Positions 2,587 through 12,591 of a stretch of DNA of 33,655 bases are shown here, piece by piece. The notes under the pieces were generated by a model. That model worked only from the letters and a program-made list of their open reading frames with translations. It ran no database searches and was not told the DNA's origin. A program made the translations under genes and the position numbers. This DNA is from a virus, in the IMG/VR virus record IMGVR_UViG_3300030098_001465, positions 1-33,655 of that record. One strand, given 5' to 3'. The stretch's first letter is position 1, and the number at the start of each line of letters is the position of its first letter.

Positions 2587-4107
2587 CTACATTCGTGACC
2601 AAATTGAACTTCTTATTTTCTGTATAGGCTTTCTTGCAAAAATATCAAAGCCTTTTCTTGCATGAAATGCAGAAACTGGTTTCTGTCCAGACATAAGTTT
2701 TCGCCCTTCCCCTGCTCCTAACATCAAATATTGCAGGGCATCATGCACATGGGAATACATATTCTTATCAGGTTTCGTGTCATATCGTTCCCCACTTACC
2801 TGTAACTTTCTGTAGGCATAGCCACCTTCAAACCCCTTAATTAACGTAGGGCATCTTCTATCTACAAGAAAAGCAGGGATACCTTCTGACATTTTATTTA
2901 ATTGAGAAGATACGGACTCTAATCTTAAATCCACACTATTACTTGGAGCAGGTGTCGCTCTTAACCCTGCACCCCTTAATATTTGGAATGGTGTAGATTC
3001 ATCCGTTTGCGCCCTAAAGTCTCCTGCAGGGTCGCCATAGATGTAAACATCTAAGTTGCCAAATCGTGTAGCTATCTCTTGTCGTAGTAATTCAGCGAAC
3101 CGAACTATACCCATGTCAATAGCTACTATTTCTGTTTGTATTAACCATCTGCCTCTTACTTTCTGCCCAAATACAGCAGAAGGAGTAAGGCCAAAGTCAA
3201 TGCCAATATAGAGAGGAACACCTATAGCAATAGGAATTTCTTCTTTTGCTATATGTGTTTCTGGATAAAATTCAGGATATACAGGCTTACCTTCCTGTAT
3301 TAATCCCAATCTGTTCATAACATATACATCTATCCAGTTCTTAGTCTTTCCCCTAATAAGATTAGGATAGTAGGTTGGGAGAATGTTAGATTTATTCTCT
3401 GCTTTCTTATTCATTGAATAACTTTCAATTATACCATCTTCACCCTTCTTTTCTATCATTGCAGAAGGTTGTGTATAAAAGTTCCAGTTATCAGGCTTTA
3501 TTAACATGGTAGCCTGTTCTCTAGGAATGTGGTCTGGTATGGGAACATCACCTGCCATAATCGCCCACCAATGGTCTTCTTCAGGAGCGTTAGTATCGCA
3601 GATAACACCAGACCAACTAGGTCCACCTTCTCGCATAGAAGGAAATCTTCCGCATCTCATTGTTACGGCATCAATAATGCTCTTTGGAATTTCTCTGGCT
3701 TCATTCACCCACACCCCTGTTAATTCAAGAGAGAGTAGTTTTTTTACATCTTCTGGCCTATCAAGTGCTAAAAAGATAACTTCAATATCTAAATCATTTC
3801 TTTTGATGTGGTGAGTGTAGGGAACTGACCAATGAAACTTTCCCCAAGTATCTTCTGGAAACCAATCCAACCAAGTTTTAATAGTAGTAGTTCTAAGTTG
3901 TGGGTTTGTGTTCCTGATGACTGCCCATCTACTTCGTTTGACACCATCTTCATTAGGCTTTTGCTCTAAGGCTCTTCTAAATACTTCCACACAACAAGCA
4001 ACAGATTTGCCAGAACCAACAGGACCACGAATACCACGAAAAAAACTACTATCTTTCATAAAGTCCTTTAAGACTTCTCCGTCTGGCTTGTATTTAAAGG
4101 TTGTCAT
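2587..4107 (-). CDS. terL: terminase large subunit (DNA-packaging ATPase and nuclease)
   Basis: Motor that cuts concatemeric or circular DNA and drives it into the procapsid through the portal. The 506-residue chain shows the Walker A loop GPVGSGKS at residues 28-35, a Walker B-like strand GVWVNEAR at 131-138, and the RNase H-type nuclease domain with GIDFG (Asp304), YGDPAG (Asp359) and HDALQY (Asp456). All key acidic residues for the nuclease are present, so the enzyme looks intact. The start lies 3 bases after the stop of the preceding small gene. The small subunit is not adjacent: it lies about 2 kb upstream, across a very basic protein gene and three small genes. Confidence 0.96.
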   Translation of the reverse strand: MTTFKYKPDGEVLKDFMKDSSFFRGIRGPVGSGKSVACCVEVFRRALEQKPNEDGVKRSRWAVIRNTNPQLRTTTIKTWLDWFPEDTWGKFHWSVPYTHHIKRNDLDIEVIFLALDRPEDVKKLLSLELTGVWVNEAREIPKSIIDAVTMRCGRFPSMREGGPSWSGVICDTNAPEEDHWWAIMAGDVPIPDHIPREQATMLIKPDNWNFYTQPSAMIEKKGEDGIIESYSMNKKAENKSNILPTYYPNLIRGKTKNWIDVYVMNRLGLIQEGKPVYPEFYPETHIAKEEIPIAIGVPLYIGIDFGLTPSAVFGQKVRGRWLIQTEIVAIDMGIVRFAELLRQEIATRFGNLDVYIYGDPAGDFRAQTDESTPFQILRGAGLRATPAPSNSVDLRLESVSSQLNKMSEGIPAFLVDRRCPTLIKGFEGGYAYRKLQVSGERYDTKPDKNMYSHVHDALQYLMLGAGEGRKLMSGQKPVSAFHARKGFDIFARKPIQKIRSSIWSRM

Positions 4108-4482: not shown

Positions 4483-5784
4483 CTAGTCATAAACCCAACC
4501 ACCATGCCAAGCCTTTCGCCTTTTTCTTGGGTCAGGAGCTTCAAAATTAAACTTCTTACCAAAGAGAGTAACAGTCTTTTTAGTTTGACCAACGCCTAGC
4601 TTCTGTAAAGACTTAGGTAATTTAGCTTGAGCTTCTTTAGTTAAACCCCAACCTTTACTACCAAATAATTTTTTCTGCTTACCTGCTTCTGAACTAGAAA
4701 CATTTGAACTCTTAACAGTTGATTTAGTAGGTGTAGAAGTAGGTTTATTAGGGAATCTACCTGCTCCACCTCTTCTTGAAGAAGGTTGTGTAGCTTTATC
4801 CGCATCTCTAAGTCTCTGCATAGCATCTGCTAATTTCTTATCAGACAGCTTTTGCATAGAACCTGCATCTGCATCTTTAAATCTTTTCGAAGCTCTATCA
4901 GCTAGTTTTTTCATAGAGCCTCTATCTGCATCTCGGAATCTACTTAAAGCTGATGGAGATTTAGGTGGTGTAGAAGTAGGTTTGTTTGGAAATGGACCTG
5001 CACCACCTCTTCTTGTGGTAACTCTAGCACCAAGTTGAGAACTAGGAAGTTCTCCTCTAGTGCCTTTATCATCAGAAGGAACTCTACCTGCTAATCTACC
5101 TTTACCAACAGGCTCTTGCTTTCTAACATCTCTAGTTACATCAGTAAGTTTCTTAGGTCTTTTGTTTTCTCTAATCCTATCGCCAACCTCATTAATAGCA
5201 AGAACAGTTCCTATACCTGCGGCTGTTAATCCTATTCGTTTCATTGCCTGAATTGTTGGGTCTACCTTACCCCTACCTACAGACCTACCAACATTCTGTT
5301 TAAGTTTAGGACCTTTTAATAAAGTTTTAGAACCTCTCTTTACTTTAGGACCTTTCCCTTTTGAAACTACTGCCTTAGGGTCAATCTTAAATCTAGTTAA
5401 AAGATTGTTTATTTGTTGAGAAGAAACTTTTTTACCTTGATTAACATTGGAAATAAGTTCTCGTTGACTTTGGGTAAGCTGTGCAGGAGGCTTGTCAAGA
5501 TTGCTAGCTTTAGCTTTTCTTTGCTTTACTATATCCTTAACTTTTTGACCTTGCCCTTTTCCTTTAGGTGCTACATCCTTAACTACCTTTTTGGTCTTGC
5601 CTATATTCTTAACAACAGTTGAGGTTAAGTTCTTTGCTTTTGTTCTATTAGTCTTGCTAAGATTCTTAACAATACTCGCTCCTTTTCTAATAGCTTGCCT
5701 AGCTAAAAGCTGAGCCGCAGGTGAGCGTGCTACTTTAAATATCAAACCCCCAATTTTTATCGCTACGATTAATGGTGCCGCCAT
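4483..5784 (-). CDS. very basic repeat-containing protein (433 aa), possible DNA-binding virion protein
   Basis: Function unknown. The chain is extremely rich in Lys and Arg, with long low-complexity stretches. A hydrophobic segment lies at residues 4-17 and another at 183-199 (IGLTAAGIGTVLAINEV). The C-terminal half holds repeats: RRGGAG-x-FPNKPTSTP at about 258-273 and again at 337-352, and a 17-residue unit of type RFRDADRGSMKKLADRA at 282-298 and 301-317, with a partial copy at 324-330. The ribosome site AAGGAG is strong. Lying between terS and terL in the late set, it may be a packaged DNA-binding protein or a packaging accessory factor; that is inference. The end, KAWHGGWVYD, is unlike the rest and may be a docking tail. 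Confidence 0.8.
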   Translation of the reverse strand: MAAPLIVAIKIGGLIFKVARSPAAQLLARQAIRKGASIVKNLSKTNRTKAKNLTSTVVKNIGKTKKVVKDVAPKGKGQGQKVKDIVKQRKAKASNLDKPPAQLTQSQRELISNVNQGKKVSSQQINNLLTRFKIDPKAVVSKGKGPKVKRGSKTLLKGPKLKQNVGRSVGRGKVDPTIQAMKRIGLTAAGIGTVLAINEVGDRIRENKRPKKLTDVTRDVRKQEPVGKGRLAGRVPSDDKGTRGELPSSQLGARVTTRRGGAGPFPNKPTSTPPKSPSALSRFRDADRGSMKKLADRASKRFKDADAGSMQKLSDKKLADAMQRLRDADKATQPSSRRGGAGRFPNKPTSTPTKSTVKSSNVSSSEAGKQKKLFGSKGWGLTKEAQAKLPKSLQKLGVGQTKKTVTLFGKKFNFEAPDPRKRRKAWHGGWVYD

Positions 5785-6102: not shown

Positions 6103-6477
6103 TTAACTGAGGTCAATAGACACCTTGACATCAGCCGTATGAAGATGGACTTGCTTGTCAGGACTCTTCAAGCCAACCCTATCAAGAATGTCCTTGCTTG
6201 CCTCTAGCTGTACGTATTCGCTTCTGGCATCACCTGACAAGGAGACTATCTTTTGTACGGCTGACGTAGCATGCATGCTTAAAGAGTTAGCCACAGATTG
6301 CAGGAGGTACTGCTGTACATGCGGTTGCTTCAGAGCCTTACTGGCACTGACTCTACCGCTTTCACCTTCTGCATATCCTGCAATCTGAGACGCTTCTTTA
6401 ATCGTGCATGCGTTTGCTACGAGAGTATCCACTAAAGCCACCTGTTTTTCTGTCAAATTACGAGTGTTCTGGTTCAT
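6103..6477 (-). CDS. terS: terminase small subunit
   Basis: Recognises the phage DNA and recruits the large subunit to start packaging. I chose the ATG at 6477 (124 residues) over the upstream one at 6513 because GGAGG sits 7 bases before it. Residues 8-58 (LTEKQVALVDTLVANACTIK, then QIAGYAEGESGRVSASKALK and QPHVQQYL) are a typical TerS helix-turn-helix, and the C-terminus (KDILDRVGL, then VKVSIDLS) also fits the family. The gene stands in the left arm of the long inverted repeat; the right arm holds a deleted remnant of a second terS. A promoter-like pair (6497-6526) lies just upstream. Base composition is richer in GC than most of the genome. Confidence 0.9.
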   Translation of the reverse strand: MNQNTRNLTEKQVALVDTLVANACTIKEASQIAGYAEGESGRVSASKALKQPHVQQYLLQSVANSLSMHATSAVQKIVSLSGDARSEYVQLEASKDILDRVGLKSPDKQVHLHTADVKVSIDLS

Positions 6478-6496
6478 GCTAGCACCTCCAGAATGG

Positions 6497-6526
6497 ACTT
6501 TACTCTCGTGCAAACTGGCATGTCAA
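6497..6526 (-). promoter_or_regulatory. candidate sigma70-type promoter before terS
   Basis: On the minus strand TTGACA (6526 to 6521) is followed after 18 bases by TAAAGT (6502 to 6497), a full -35 match and 4 of 6 at -10. The start would fall almost on the terS ribosome site, leaving a very short leader, which weakens the call. Confidence 0.35.
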
Positions 6527-6915
6527 GGTGTTAATACAACTAACGCCCATAAAGTTAAGTTCTGAGGGTGTGGAGATGTCATCTTACCATGAAATATGCC
6601 TGACAATCTCTTGCAGACTCCCTTTGCCGAATCAGAGCATCAGGTCTGCTACTGAATTCTTTACTTCCCTACGGTTACAAGATTGTCATGCTTCATGAAA
6701 GATGACGCTCCACATGCCTCTATACCCCACTCTTTTCCTTAAAGTAGCATACCATCTCCAATAGCGTCACGCTGTTGAAGTACAGATGAACTTTCTCCAC
6801 AAATCCACAACAGATGACATCTACCAATAGTTCGGAGGTAATTCGACTGTAATGCCCAAGCGTCACGAACGAAATCTGACTGCGAGCTTGCCTTGTTTTG
6901 TGCAAGACTGGTCAC
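6497..6915 (-). pseudogene. decayed copy of gene X (left arm)
   Basis: Reverse complement of this stretch aligns with the whole intact gene at 7104-7511. The start codon region reads GTG in place of ATG, and the GTG frame stops after about 57 codons at a TAA near 6742. Recognisable protein fragments remain: VRDAW against VRDPW, and QRDAI followed shortly by ML in both. Many indels of 1 to 7 bases break the frame. No other protein is supported here. It lies between the leftward promoter candidate and terS, so it would now be a 5' leader of the terS transcript. Confidence 0.85.
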
Positions 6916-6923
6916 GCTACCGT

Positions 6924-7095
6924 CCTTTCTTTGCAGTTGTTAAATTCCTCCCCACCATAGCAGGAGCAAAACCATGTCAACAAGAATGACGGTTTCCACT
7001 CGCGAGCAAGAGCGAGCGGACCCTCCGCAATTCTTGTGGACTTGGTTTTCTTTTCTCCTGCTATTGGTGCGTCACAATTTAACAGCAAAGAAAGG
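6924..7095. other. central imperfect hairpin or cruciform of the inverted repeat
   Basis: Six complementary blocks in register: 6924-6934 with 7085-7095 (11 bp), 6939-6946 with 7076-7083 (8 bp), 6957-6966 with 7055-7064 (10 bp), 6968-6973 with 7044-7049 (6 bp), 6980-6987 with 7030-7037 (8 bp) and 6999-7003 with 7012-7016 (5 bp tip). The outer block includes the first part of the ribosome site of gene X (AAAGGAGG, 7091-7098). It could be simply the tip of an inverted duplication, or an extruding or RNA-folding control element. Confidence 0.85.
6954..6980 (-). promoter_or_regulatory. candidate leftward (late-operon) promoter
   Basis: On the minus strand TTGACA (6980 to 6975), 15 bases, then TGC-TATGGT (extended -10, 6962 to 6954). 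The right arm has the mirrored form TGGACT (7037-7042), 19 bases, TGC-TATTGG (7059-7067). The -35 match is perfect only on the left. Spacing is short, so support is moderate. Confidence 0.4.
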
Positions 7096-7103
7096 AGGGC
7101 ATC

Positions 7104-7511
7104 ATGCCCAATCTTACAAAAACAATTCAAGCTCTTGCAGATTCCGTTCGAGACCCTTGGGGTCGAATCCGAACTGTAGAGTCAATCTGTTATGGATTTG
7201 CAGAGAAACTTCAGTACTTCAAAGACCAGCGTGACGCTATTGAATCTGATATGCTTAAGGAAGAAGAGCGTTGCATAGAGGCAGGATGTGAAGCGTCCAT
7301 GAAGCATGAAAATCTCTTCACTCGTTGGGAAGTAAAGAAGGATTCAGTAGCTGACCTTGAGGCTCTTCTTACTTCGGCAAAGGAAGTCTACAAGAAAGAG
7401 TCAGGCGAAGAATATATTCATGGTAAGAAGAAATCTCGCACACCCTCTAAGAACTCAGCCTATAATGAGTACCTTAGTAGATGGAACAGACAGCCTCTTA
7501 GCACAGAGTAA
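7104..7511 (+). CDS. gene X: first rightward gene, unknown 135-aa protein
   Basis: Not recognised. The product is hydrophilic and probably helical, with an acidic, Cys-containing centre (KEEERCIEAGCEAS, about residues 52-65) and a basic C-terminal part (HGKKKSRTPSK). A strong AAAGGAGG ribosome site lies 5 bases before the ATG, partly inside the outer stem of the central hairpin. As the first gene of the rightward set it would be made earliest, which fits a host-takeover or regulatory role, but nothing in the protein shows this. A broken copy lies in mirror position in the left arm; that this copy stayed open while the other decayed argues it is expressed and useful. Richer in GC than the genes that follow. 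Confidence 0.8.
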   Translation: MPNLTKTIQALADSVRDPWGRIRTVESICYGFAEKLQYFKDQRDAIESDMLKEEERCIEAGCEASMKHENLFTRWEVKKDSVADLEALLTSAKEVYKKESGEEYIHGKKKSRTPSKNSAYNEYLSRWNRQPLSTE

Positions 7512-7548
7512 AGTCAAGCAATTCTGGAGGGTGCTATCACTCTCCAGA

Positions 7549-7590
7549 ACACTTTTTTCTGCGAGTGGATACACTCGTAGTAAAAAGTGT
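7549..7590. other. 19-pair hairpin in the terS remnant
   Basis: 7549-7567 pairs with 7572-7590 around the loop GATA, with one mismatch and one G-T pair. The outer part is ACACTTTTT against AAAAAGTGT and the inner part CGAGTG against CACTCG. Confidence 0.85.
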
Positions 7591-7612
7591 ACGTCAGCCG
7601 TAAGGCTGATGT
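7591..7612. other. 9-pair hairpin with GTAA loop
   Basis: TCAGCC (7594-7599), loop GTAA, GGCTGA (7604-7609), extended outward by three more pairs to 7591 and 7612, one of them G-T. It lies one base-step after the 19-pair hairpin. Confidence 0.8.
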
Positions 7613-7631
7613 CTGCTATGTCTATAACTTA

Positions 7632-7667
7632 AACCTTCCCCTAGAATAAGAGGGGGATGGGGGGTTA
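7632..7667. other. GC-rich hairpin at the outer end of the right arm
   Basis: AACCTTCCCCT (7632-7642) faces AGGGGGA and GGGGGGTT (7650-7667) with an 8-base loop. The left arm has the same outer bases (CCTTCCCC and GGGGGGT, minus strand) but with the 66-base hairpin between them. A short run of A, not T, follows, so it is not a clear terminator. Confidence 0.6.
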
Positions 7668-7733
7668 AAATAGGACACCGCCTCGAACAGGGGGTGTTAG
7701 AGTATGGCTACAAATAGATTGGAGTAAAATAAG

Positions 7734-7931
7734 ATGAATGAAGAATTGATTCCTAAATCAGAACTCAATGATTTTATAAATGAAAGACGAAAGATAATTG
7801 TAAAGCAAGAGTTAAGAAAACCAATGATTGATTTCTCAACAGACGGAAAGATATGGTGGCTGTTTGAAGGGGTGCTATATCTAGGAGTATTTACATTAGG
7901 GATTTGGTTAGGGTTTGTGCTGTTATCTTAA
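7734..7931 (+). CDS. small membrane protein (65 aa)
   Basis: Short charged N-terminal part, then one or two hydrophobic segments (WWLFEGVLYLGVFTLGIWLG, about residues 41-60) reaching nearly to the C-terminus, so a tail-anchored inner-membrane protein with its N-terminus probably inside the cell. Ribosome site GGAG lies about 9 bases upstream. No family recognised. Its place early in the rightward set suggests an early host-modifying role, as for many small early phage membrane proteins; this is inference. Confidence 0.75.
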   Translation: MNEELIPKSELNDFINERRKIIVKQELRKPMIDFSTDGKIWWLFEGVLYLGVFTLGIWLGFVLLS

Positions 7932-8094
7932 CCAAATAAAGTAAGGAGATAATGAAAGTACTATACATATAAATCTATCTAAGAATAGTTTGTATGGCCT
8001 CATTATCTTCTTACAAAGGAGGTAGCTGAGTAACGAATGGCATACGAAAAGTTAGCCTTTAGTTACCTCCTGCAACAGCACAGAATTGTGTCCG

Positions 8095-8110
8095 AATAAA
8101 TAGGTATTAA
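8095..8110. repeat. 16-base direct repeat in a hairpin loop, copy 1
   Basis: AATAAATAGGTATTAA, inside the loop of the 8087-8120 hairpin; identical to 8132-8147. Confidence 0.9.
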
Positions 8111-8131
8111 AACGGACACAGATTGTAGGTA

Positions 8132-8147
8132 AATAAATAGGTATTAA
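8132..8147. repeat. 16-base direct repeat in a hairpin loop, copy 2
   Basis: Same 16 bases, inside the loop of the next hairpin (8125-8156), whose stem sequence is different from that of the first. Confidence 0.9.
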
Positions 8148-8291
8148 TTAACCTACGAATGAATCTATCAATCATAACACACAAGAATTGCAAGGTACGC
8201 TTCGCTTAAACACCTTGCAATTATTGTGCTTATATGATTTGATAGTTTGCATAAGTGCAATAATAATATCATCTATAAAAAGGAGAGAAAA

Positions 8292-9194
8292 ATGGATGGA
8301 ACTTTTAATTGGTCAGTCTACAATAAGAAACTACTACAAGCTGATAATGTTTGTGATAGTTCAGACTATAACTTTGGATATGAGTGGAAAGAATTATCTG
8401 CTGATGGTGTACCTATACCAACCAGATTGGGCAGGGCATTAGTCAGAAAAGATAATGGCATGACACTTGGTATTCATAAATCTAAATATGTACCAGTAAA
8501 GCATGAGTCTGTTGTAGATAGTGTACTTGAAACAGTAGAGAAACTAGACTGTGGAAAAACATATACAACAATCGAAGTGTTTGAAGAAGGCAGAAAACTA
8601 AGAGGTCAGATATACTTTGATGATGTATCTATAGAACCTCAGATTGGTGATGTCATTGGATACACTATAGACTTTAGAAATTCTTATGATGGAACATGGA
8701 AGTTAGCAATGGCAGGAGAAGGAAAGAGAATCTTCTGTCTTAATACTATGACACACGGCATGAGGTTGAGTGAGAATATAATTAAGCATACTATCTCTGC
8801 TTCTGTTGCTGATACATCTGAGAAATTGAAGATAGCTATGGACACATTTGTTAATAGTGAAGAAACATATAAAAGAATGATTGAATCTAAACAAGATGAG
8901 ACAACAGCTAAAGAATTACTTGAACGTTATTTGTGTCGGATGCCAACCAAATCAGGCAAGCCGAAAACAAATGATGTTCAATTAGAAATTGTTTGTGGTC
9001 AGTTGCAAAAAGAGAGAGCAATGCTAGGCGGCAATCAATGGGCTACTTATAACACAGCTACACATTGGGCCACCCATACACCTAAGGGAGACAATGACAG
9101 GAAGCGAAACGAATCTGTTGTAGGTAGATTAAATGATGCAACTACTAGGCATCTAAAAGTTGAGCAGTTAAAGGATGCGTTAGCATACGCATAA
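8292..9194 (+). CDS. DUF932-type protein (phage/plasmid-like TIGR03299 family)
   Basis: Resembles the DUF932 family, found in many phages and plasmids; no biochemical role is established to my knowledge. I chose the ATG at 8292 (300 residues) because GGAGAG lies just before it; the in-frame ATG at 8247 is inside a hairpin and has no ribosome site. Family-like parts are the middle, YVPVKHESVVDSVLE, the HGMRLSENIIKHT region, and the C-terminal QLQKERAMLGGNQWATYNTA followed by THWATHTP and the NESVVGRL end. It is the largest early gene, after the hairpin array. In other phages such proteins sit among replication genes, which would fit here. Confidence 0.8.
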   Translation: MDGTFNWSVYNKKLLQADNVCDSSDYNFGYEWKELSADGVPIPTRLGRALVRKDNGMTLGIHKSKYVPVKHESVVDSVLETVEKLDCGKTYTTIEVFEEGRKLRGQIYFDDVSIEPQIGDVIGYTIDFRNSYDGTWKLAMAGEGKRIFCLNTMTHGMRLSENIIKHTISASVADTSEKLKIAMDTFVNSEETYKRMIESKQDETTAKELLERYLCRMPTKSGKPKTNDVQLEIVCGQLQKERAMLGGNQWATYNTATHWATHTPKGDNDRKRNESVVGRLNDATTRHLKVEQLKDALAYA

Positions 9195-9199
9195 GAGAT

Positions 9200-9258
9200 G
9201 AGGGAAGCATGGAGTTTTGTGTCATGGCTTATCTATGCTTCCCTCTACATGACACAAA
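9200..9258 (+). promoter_or_regulatory. two overlapping 11-bp stems before the 9280 gene
   Basis: Stem A: 9200-9210 (GAGGGAAGCAT) with 9235-9245. Stem B: 9216-9226 (TTTGTGTCATG), inside loop A, with 9248-9258. Both are perfect. They can form a pseudoknot or act as alternatives. A third choice, CATGGCTT (9223-9230) with AAGCCATG (9257-9264), competes with B. Confidence 0.75.
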
Positions 9259-9279
9259 GCCATGCAAAAGGAGAGAGTA

Positions 9280-11772: not shown

Positions 11773-12591
11773 ATGGAACGTAAAGGTTTCTTAGGCGGTA
11801 GTGATGCCGTTAGAATTATGAATGGTGACTGGCACCAACTCTGGCTAGAAAAAACTGGAAGAGTAGAACCAGAAGATTTATCAGATAACTTTGCAGTACA
11901 GATGGGAGTAATGTCTGAGCCATTTAACTTACAATGGTTTTATAAAAACTATACAATGCTATCCCCATTTGATTCAAAGTTTTGTGAGTTTATATCTGGC
12001 TTCTTTCGTGGTCATGTTGATGGTCTTATACATACAGATGATAACAATTATGCAGGTATAGAGTGTAAGCATACTCATCAGTTCAACACAATGGACAAGC
12101 AACTTGTTAGATATATGCCACAACTTCAATTCTATTTATACTTAATGGGAGAAAGATATACCCATAGCAGAATAGATGGCATGTACTTCTCAAACATATT
12201 TGGAAACAATAGATGGGAGTGTGTTCATGTAGCACCTGACTATAAATACCAGAAAGAAGTAATAACAGAATGTTCTAAGTTCTGGCAATTTGTAACAGAA
12301 GATAGAGAACCAGAAGATAGAGAAGGGCAGTTTGAACCTGAGAAAAAGCTAGATGCTATAGCTATAGATAAGCTAGTGGCTAAAGATATGAGTGGGAACA
12401 ACTACTTTAGCGAACTCTCTGCTAAATATATAAAGCAAGAGAGTTCAGCTAAAGAGTTTGAGGCAACCAAGAAAGAAATTAAAACTCTTATTGGTGAGCA
12501 AGAGAGAGAGGTTTATAATGATAAGATAAGCCTCAAGAAAGATAAACGAGGAGCAATCCGAATCACAATTAAAGGAGAGAGTGATGAATGA
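11773..12591 (+). CDS. YqaJ-type (lambda-exonuclease-like) DNA exonuclease
   Basis: Expected to resect double-stranded DNA ends to give 3' single strands for annealing by the next gene product. Seen in 272 residues: GGSDA near residue 8, MSEP with Glu49, GHVDGLI with Asp83, and GIECKH with Glu97 and Lys99, then MPQLQFYLY (about 115-123), the order of active-site motifs of the YqaJ group of the PD-(D/E)XK superfamily. The C-terminal part is highly charged and helical. GGAGAGAG lies just before the ATG. The stop overlaps the start of the annealing-protein gene, as in lambda-style recombination pairs. Confidence 0.88.
   Translation: MERKGFLGGSDAVRIMNGDWHQLWLEKTGRVEPEDLSDNFAVQMGVMSEPFNLQWFYKNYTMLSPFDSKFCEFISGFFRGHVDGLIHTDDNNYAGIECKHTHQFNTMDKQLVRYMPQLQFYLYLMGERYTHSRIDGMYFSNIFGNNRWECVHVAPDYKYQKEVITECSKFWQFVTEDREPEDREGQFEPEKKLDAIAIDKLVAKDMSGNNYFSELSAKYIKQESSAKEFEATKKEIKTLIGEQEREVYNDKISLKKDKRGAIRITIKGESDE

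Follow-up and report, generated by a model that had tools for sequence, protein, structure and literature searches.

Hairpins with an invariant loop core and covarying stems at early-gene boundaries of putative marine podoviruses

A 360-nt intergenic gap of a viral genome contains five consecutive hairpins, two of which belong to a family of 34-nt elements that recurs in related genomes. The members of this family show an RNA-type constraint on the stem, a conserved loop core, sense orientation, placement at gene boundaries, and mosaic junctions at the hairpin. We propose that they are cis-acting RNA hairpins of the early operon which mark cistron boundaries and which may also be used as short linkers for gene exchange. 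From the sequence comparisons, we assign this reading a probability of about one half.

The window, which is the whole stretch of DNA analysed, is IMG/VR virus record IMGVR_UViG_3300030098_001465 (33,655 nt). It is the genome of a podovirus, a marine virus of bacteria with Pelagibacter phage Hodr as a relative. TerL shows 64% identity to that of Pelagibacter phage EXVC031P Hodr, and the ERF-like protein shows 41-43% identity to Pelagibacter phages HTVC035P and Lederberg. The late genes are on the - strand and a rightward early operon begins near 7.1 kb. This operon codes for a DUF932 protein, small HTH proteins, a RusA-like protein, a YqaJ exonuclease, an ERF-like annealing protein and an SSB-like protein, with small DNA-binding proteins (HTH_39, MarR-like or AlpA-like) among the products encoded nearby. 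The Pfam scan took in 20 window proteins, and neither tRNA nor tmRNA genes were found in the window. The gap (7932-8291) separates an ORF of 65 aa (7734-7931) from the DUF932 gene. Its features, and the gene that follows, are:

7941-8014, + strand: hairpin 1, 15-bp stem GTAAGGAGATAATGA/TCATTATCTTCTTAC with one G.U pair on the + strand
8017-8071, + strand: hairpin 2, 14-bp outer stem
8037-8099, + strand: hypothetical 20-codon ORF that passes through hairpin 2 and stops within hairpin A
8087-8120, + strand: hairpin A, 34-nt family member, stem TGTGTCCG/CGGACACA, 18-nt loop AATAAATAGGTATTAAAA
8124-8157, + strand: hairpin B, second 34-nt family member, stem TGTAGGT/ACCTACG, loop as in A
about 8165-8245, + strand: hairpin E, long interrupted stem (~22 bp), loop CGCTTCGCTTAAAC
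8239-8267, + strand: weak promoter-like match TTGATA-17-AATAAT, overlapping the 3' arm of hairpin E
8292-9194, + strand: gene for the DUF932 protein (300 aa), ribosome binding site at 8280-8285

The first-pass annotation had reported at least five stems in this gap, and five separate hairpins were indeed found. The RNA fold of the + strand has -106.6 kcal/mol (z -9.1), a value that none of 100 shuffles equals, and that of the - strand has -99.5 kcal/mol (z -7.9). When folded singly, the hairpins at 7941-8014, 8017-8071, 8087-8120, 8124-8157 and ~8165-8245 have z-values of -5.8, -5.3, -4.4, -2.7 and -5.8, hairpin B alone being modestly better than shuffles (5/200). Overlapping 120-nt windows from 7500 to 8280 rank among the most structured of the genome. 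The loop AATAAATAGGTATTAA has exactly two copies in the genome (8095-8110 and 8132-8147), enclosed by TGTGTCCG/CGGACACA in hairpin A and by GTAGGT/ACCTAC in hairpin B, so that the description of two neighbours with a common 16-base loop on unrelated stems is accurate. Intrinsic terminator features were not detected: the hairpins lack a U-run and there is no match in a terminator scan. The 5' arm of hairpin 1 carries an SD-like AAGGAG and an ATG (6-codon ORF). The frame of ORF 8037-8099 through hairpin A continues in relative L130 as the 3' end of ORF 3579-3764.

The close relatives L003 and L004 have nearly unchanged versions of hairpins 1, A, B and E, and the -10 box of the promoter-like match is not kept. 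Between hairpins 1 and A, the slot of hairpin 2 is occupied by unrelated sequence. In addition, L003 has a second copy of hairpin 1 behind the DUF932 gene, with identical stem and different loop, where the window has nothing. The swap of hairpin 2 and the extra copy of hairpin 1 indicate that the array is an exchange region of hairpin-sized pieces. No DNA similarity of the array to named phages was found, and the hairpins and the promoter region of L068 have only chance-level matches there. The core of hairpin E is found in IMG/VR only in two close relatives. One relative carries the 32-nt core of hairpin B without any change, and two other groups carry it with a 1-nt difference.

Relatives were gathered by a search with the annealing protein, which yielded 69 loci (viral contigs that are often fragments) and no relatives in cellular genome contigs. 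At the start of the early gene MTDEEF, many of these loci carry an A-like hairpin (GTGTCCTAATAAATACGATTAAATAGGACAC and variants). Hairpins at this site were identified by position, not by sequence, and further copies were obtained by pattern scans. Together, 13 distinct sequences of 33-34 nt were obtained, all with a stem of 8 bp; their A/T-rich loop contains AATA-n2-3-ATTAA as an invariant core. Mean pairwise identity is 100% for the loop core, a value partly inflated by those members that were ascertained by loop sequence, and 66% for the stem.

The stem covaries. Changes on both sides with pairing kept occur at six of the eight stem pairs and in 18 cells, a count that overstates the independent events because orthologous copies are partly related by descent. 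Pairing is retained in 95.2% of the stem cells as compared to 77.7% in shuffles, and the covariation score (0.551, shuffled 0.246) is reached by none of 500 shuffles and drops to near zero when stem partners are slid. Compensatory base-pair changes, by which a structured RNA is recognized, are thus present above controls. An inner extension of the stem (AAT/ATT), which the alignment columns suggest, was not supported. On the + strand, nine T.G wobble cells (U.G on the mRNA) stand against one A.C cell, as would be expected for selection on the mRNA strand. The lone A.C cell stems from the L034/L027 copy of hairpin B, where one + strand pair is broken that would be G.U on the - strand.

When A-type stems were searched without a condition on the loop, only members with the AATA/ATTAA loop core were returned; the corresponding search for B-type stems gave, in addition, a single chance hit within the terminase gene region of L003/L004. 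Exact copies of the loop 16-mer across IMG/VR are mostly chance matches without a G+C stem, and only clade members have such a stem. The copies in L034 and L027 have one mismatch in the 16-mer. No family was found in Rfam at gathering or relaxed thresholds, where one microRNA match was at chance level, far below the cut-off. Since the loop core is invariant, the stem covaries and the A-type stem search returns only loop-core members, the loops are, on the side of sequence, conserved in related genomes. The proposal that the loop is conserved and the stem need only pair has thus held up, and among the candidates named initially a regulatory RNA domain fits best.

Alternatively, the element may act as DNA, as a hyphenated palindrome that is the dimer site of a phage transcription factor controlling an early promoter. 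Most members do have a constant core of 31-32 nt with the dyad centre AATASSTATT, the hairpin centre at the MTDEEF site is ~30 nt upstream of a conserved -35 box, and the operon encodes small DNA-binding proteins. However, the outer half-sites change completely (GTGTCC to GTAGGT) and yet stay complementary, which dimers that read sequence do not need. For this reason the binding site for a dimeric phage HTH protein that had been considered earlier fits poorly. Moreover, the copies in L034 and L130 lack an evident promoter, and the orientation is constant despite the near-palindrome. We consider an operator rather unlikely.

The family occurs at four non-homologous gene boundaries: before the DUF932 gene (window group, in tandem), before MTDEEF (L068, L082 and others), before MSQKN (L034 and L027, with the near-identical copy of hairpin B), and before MALPF (L130). 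All copies are sense to transcription and coincide with the end of an ORF or follow it closely. The window group has two copies per genome; elsewhere there is a single copy or no copy. As many relatives lack the hairpin, the element is dispensable. Similarity is confined to the element: identity is 97% between hairpin A and its L130 counterpart and likewise 97% between hairpin B and its L034 counterpart, with the flanks at background (60-61% for A, 56-61% for B). BLAST of the array matched segments of 37 and 35 nt, which is the hairpin and little else.

An empty site exists at MTDEEF, where L079 hardly differs from L068 on either side and L068 has an insert of ~44 nt that bears the hairpin. 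Members at this site are 84-99% alike in the downstream promoter region, while the upstream side consists of unrelated groups, one of them a tRNA-like sequence that ends just before the hairpin. Some relatives have another hairpin or none in this slot. Gene neighbours are thus exchanged at the hairpin. A putative sigma-70-type promoter (TTGATT-17-TATAAT), conserved at this site, lies ~14 nt after the hairpin. It was recognised by comparing relatives, counts in promoter scans being near the shuffle mean. As to sequences directly upstream of the hairpin, the tRNA-like sequence is located in L067 at about 1335-1410, and L074 has short iteron-like repeats (GTGGACA..., TATATCAGG) at 5603-5668. The earlier reading was correct on the conserved loop and the pairing stem, but the moving placement at gene boundaries and the mosaic junctions had been missed.

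A mobile MITE- or REP-like hairpin element with a transposase in trans would likewise leave a clean empty site and place one 34-nt unit at non-homologous positions. Such an element is improbable, however, as there are only one or two copies per genome, the 20 window proteins scanned with Pfam yielded no transposase match, the copies keep a constant orientation and position at gene ends, and there is no clear target-site duplication beyond an ATTT microhomology. A pure recombination linker, that is, shared homology at module boundaries that has no role as RNA, would explain why identity shifts at the hairpin edges and why upstream neighbours are swapped. It would not give a constant loop together with paired stem changes and a wobble bias on the mRNA strand, and we regard it as equally improbable. 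Integron attC sites were considered as well, but R-box-like ends were not seen by eye.

Loop-conserved hairpins that occur once or twice per genome in an early operon, with a tandem pair in the window, could be cis-acting antitermination RNAs of the nut/boxB or put type. Against this, no boxA-like sequence was seen upstream by eye, the single copies elsewhere are upstream and not downstream of the promoter, and many relatives have no element. This explanation is very improbable. A lambda nut site in particular was discarded on account of the 18-nt loop and of the boxA-like sequence not being seen by eye.

A replication origin, also among the initial candidates, would fit the change of sign of GC and AT skew near 7 kb, with the hairpins close by. 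The skew switch coincides, however, with the change in gene strand, and the elements do not keep one conserved place in all relatives but are absent from many and located elsewhere in others. Absence of the element from many relatives makes an origin unlikely, and we give it hardly any weight.

Other structures were observed in the vicinity. An imperfect palindrome of ~1.1 kb (6463-7553, ~72% self-complementary) is centred near 7008, where the gene strands diverge; ORF 7104-7511 is on its right arm and a decayed-looking inverted copy on its left arm. The palindrome is kept in L052 and L053, and a counterpart was not found in 13 more distant loci. Coordinated changes between the arms account for 27 of 64 changes at paired positions, far above the expectation from independent change; gene conversion or structural constraint would explain them. 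At the corresponding position in Hodr (L051, about 12195-12366), the divergent intergenic region folds as one very long hairpin (~170 nt). More hairpins are located 3' of ORF 7104-7511 (7522-7670), the one at 7522-7549 being terminator-like and followed by a T-run, and of all 120-nt windows in the genome the one at 7501 has the strongest structure. By eye, a possible H-type pseudoknot (GAGGGAAGCAT/ATGCTTCCCTC, with GTGTCATGGCTT pairing to downstream ATGACAC and AAGCCAT) can be drawn in the gap that follows the DUF932 gene (9199-9265); it is kept in L003.

We thus return to RNA hairpins that mark cistron boundaries and serve as linkers. The hairpin would function as a transcript end or processing signal: within the early polycistronic mRNA, it may provide 3'-end protection or processing at a cistron boundary, and its A/U-rich loop is perhaps read by some factor. 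As a short common sequence at gene ends, it could at the same time be a linker for recombination by single-strand annealing, through which small early genes are exchanged. The ERF-like, YqaJ and SSB genes of the same operon are a candidate annealing system, and hairpins 1, 2 and E may be further boundary hairpins of the same exchangeable region. Phage annealing recombinases are described as acting in relaxed recombination and mosaicism (PMC3945230, PMC5499656). More tentatively, the elements may represent an undescribed family of minimal, loop-recognised RNA hairpins that move between phage gene boundaries as a bare 34-nt unit, being post-transcriptional signal and recombination linker at once, with a dedicated loop-reading factor from phage or host.

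The system is a small, testable example of gene-boundary marking and exchange in phages outside the T4 group. One marine podovirus clade near cultured Pelagibacter phages displays the junctions, an empty site, exchanged neighbours and stems that covary. It also allows conserved RNA signals to be told apart from recombination linkers, which discussions of phage mosaicism usually treat as one.

Among known systems, T7-like phages have RNase III processing hairpins between their early genes. The likeness is in the position between small early cistrons of a podovirus, and the stems of hairpins 1, 2 and E are long enough; in contrast, A and B have 8-bp outer stems only and a conserved A/U-rich loop. 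In lambda nut sites, boxA is located upstream of boxB, which has a 5-nt GNRA-like loop. With lambda boxB and the RNA antiterminators at HK022 put (PMC9378689), the family shares few copies per genome, an early operon, and a conserved loop or tandem stem-loops. It differs in its 18-nt A/U-rich loop, in that no boxA was seen, and in being upstream of the promoter at the commonest site. TIGR arrays have multiple units (most often 5-15), spacers, box C/D motifs and a Nop-domain Tas protein (PMC12045711). The resemblance to such stem-loop or dual-repeat arrays lies in phage-borne units set in tandem at a distance of ~37 nt, with one loop in common and flanks that vary, but the flanks in the window are complementary stems and not spacers. 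A TIGR array was rejected, there being two units at most and the variable parts pairing with each other; the scan of 20 window proteins gave no match to a Nop-domain protein.

Of the known systems, the PeSL (promoter-early stem-loop) cassette of T4-type phages, cited in PMC4503421, comes nearest. The family appears to be a good match to it in how it works, and fails membership on terminator features and copy number. In PeSL cassettes the stem-loop is a terminator, a sigma-70-like early promoter is adjacent, and there are many copies per genome in shuffled regions; they were reportedly described by Arbiol in 2010 and Comeau in 2014. The present hairpins, in contrast, have no terminator features but a conserved loop on a covarying stem, they occur in one or two copies per genome rather than many, and the part common to the sites is the hairpin without a promoter, the promoter-like match in the window being weak and unconserved. 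What both have in common is a short stem-loop at early-gene boundaries whose neighbours are shuffled; at one of the sites described here a putative sigma-70-like promoter is adjacent.
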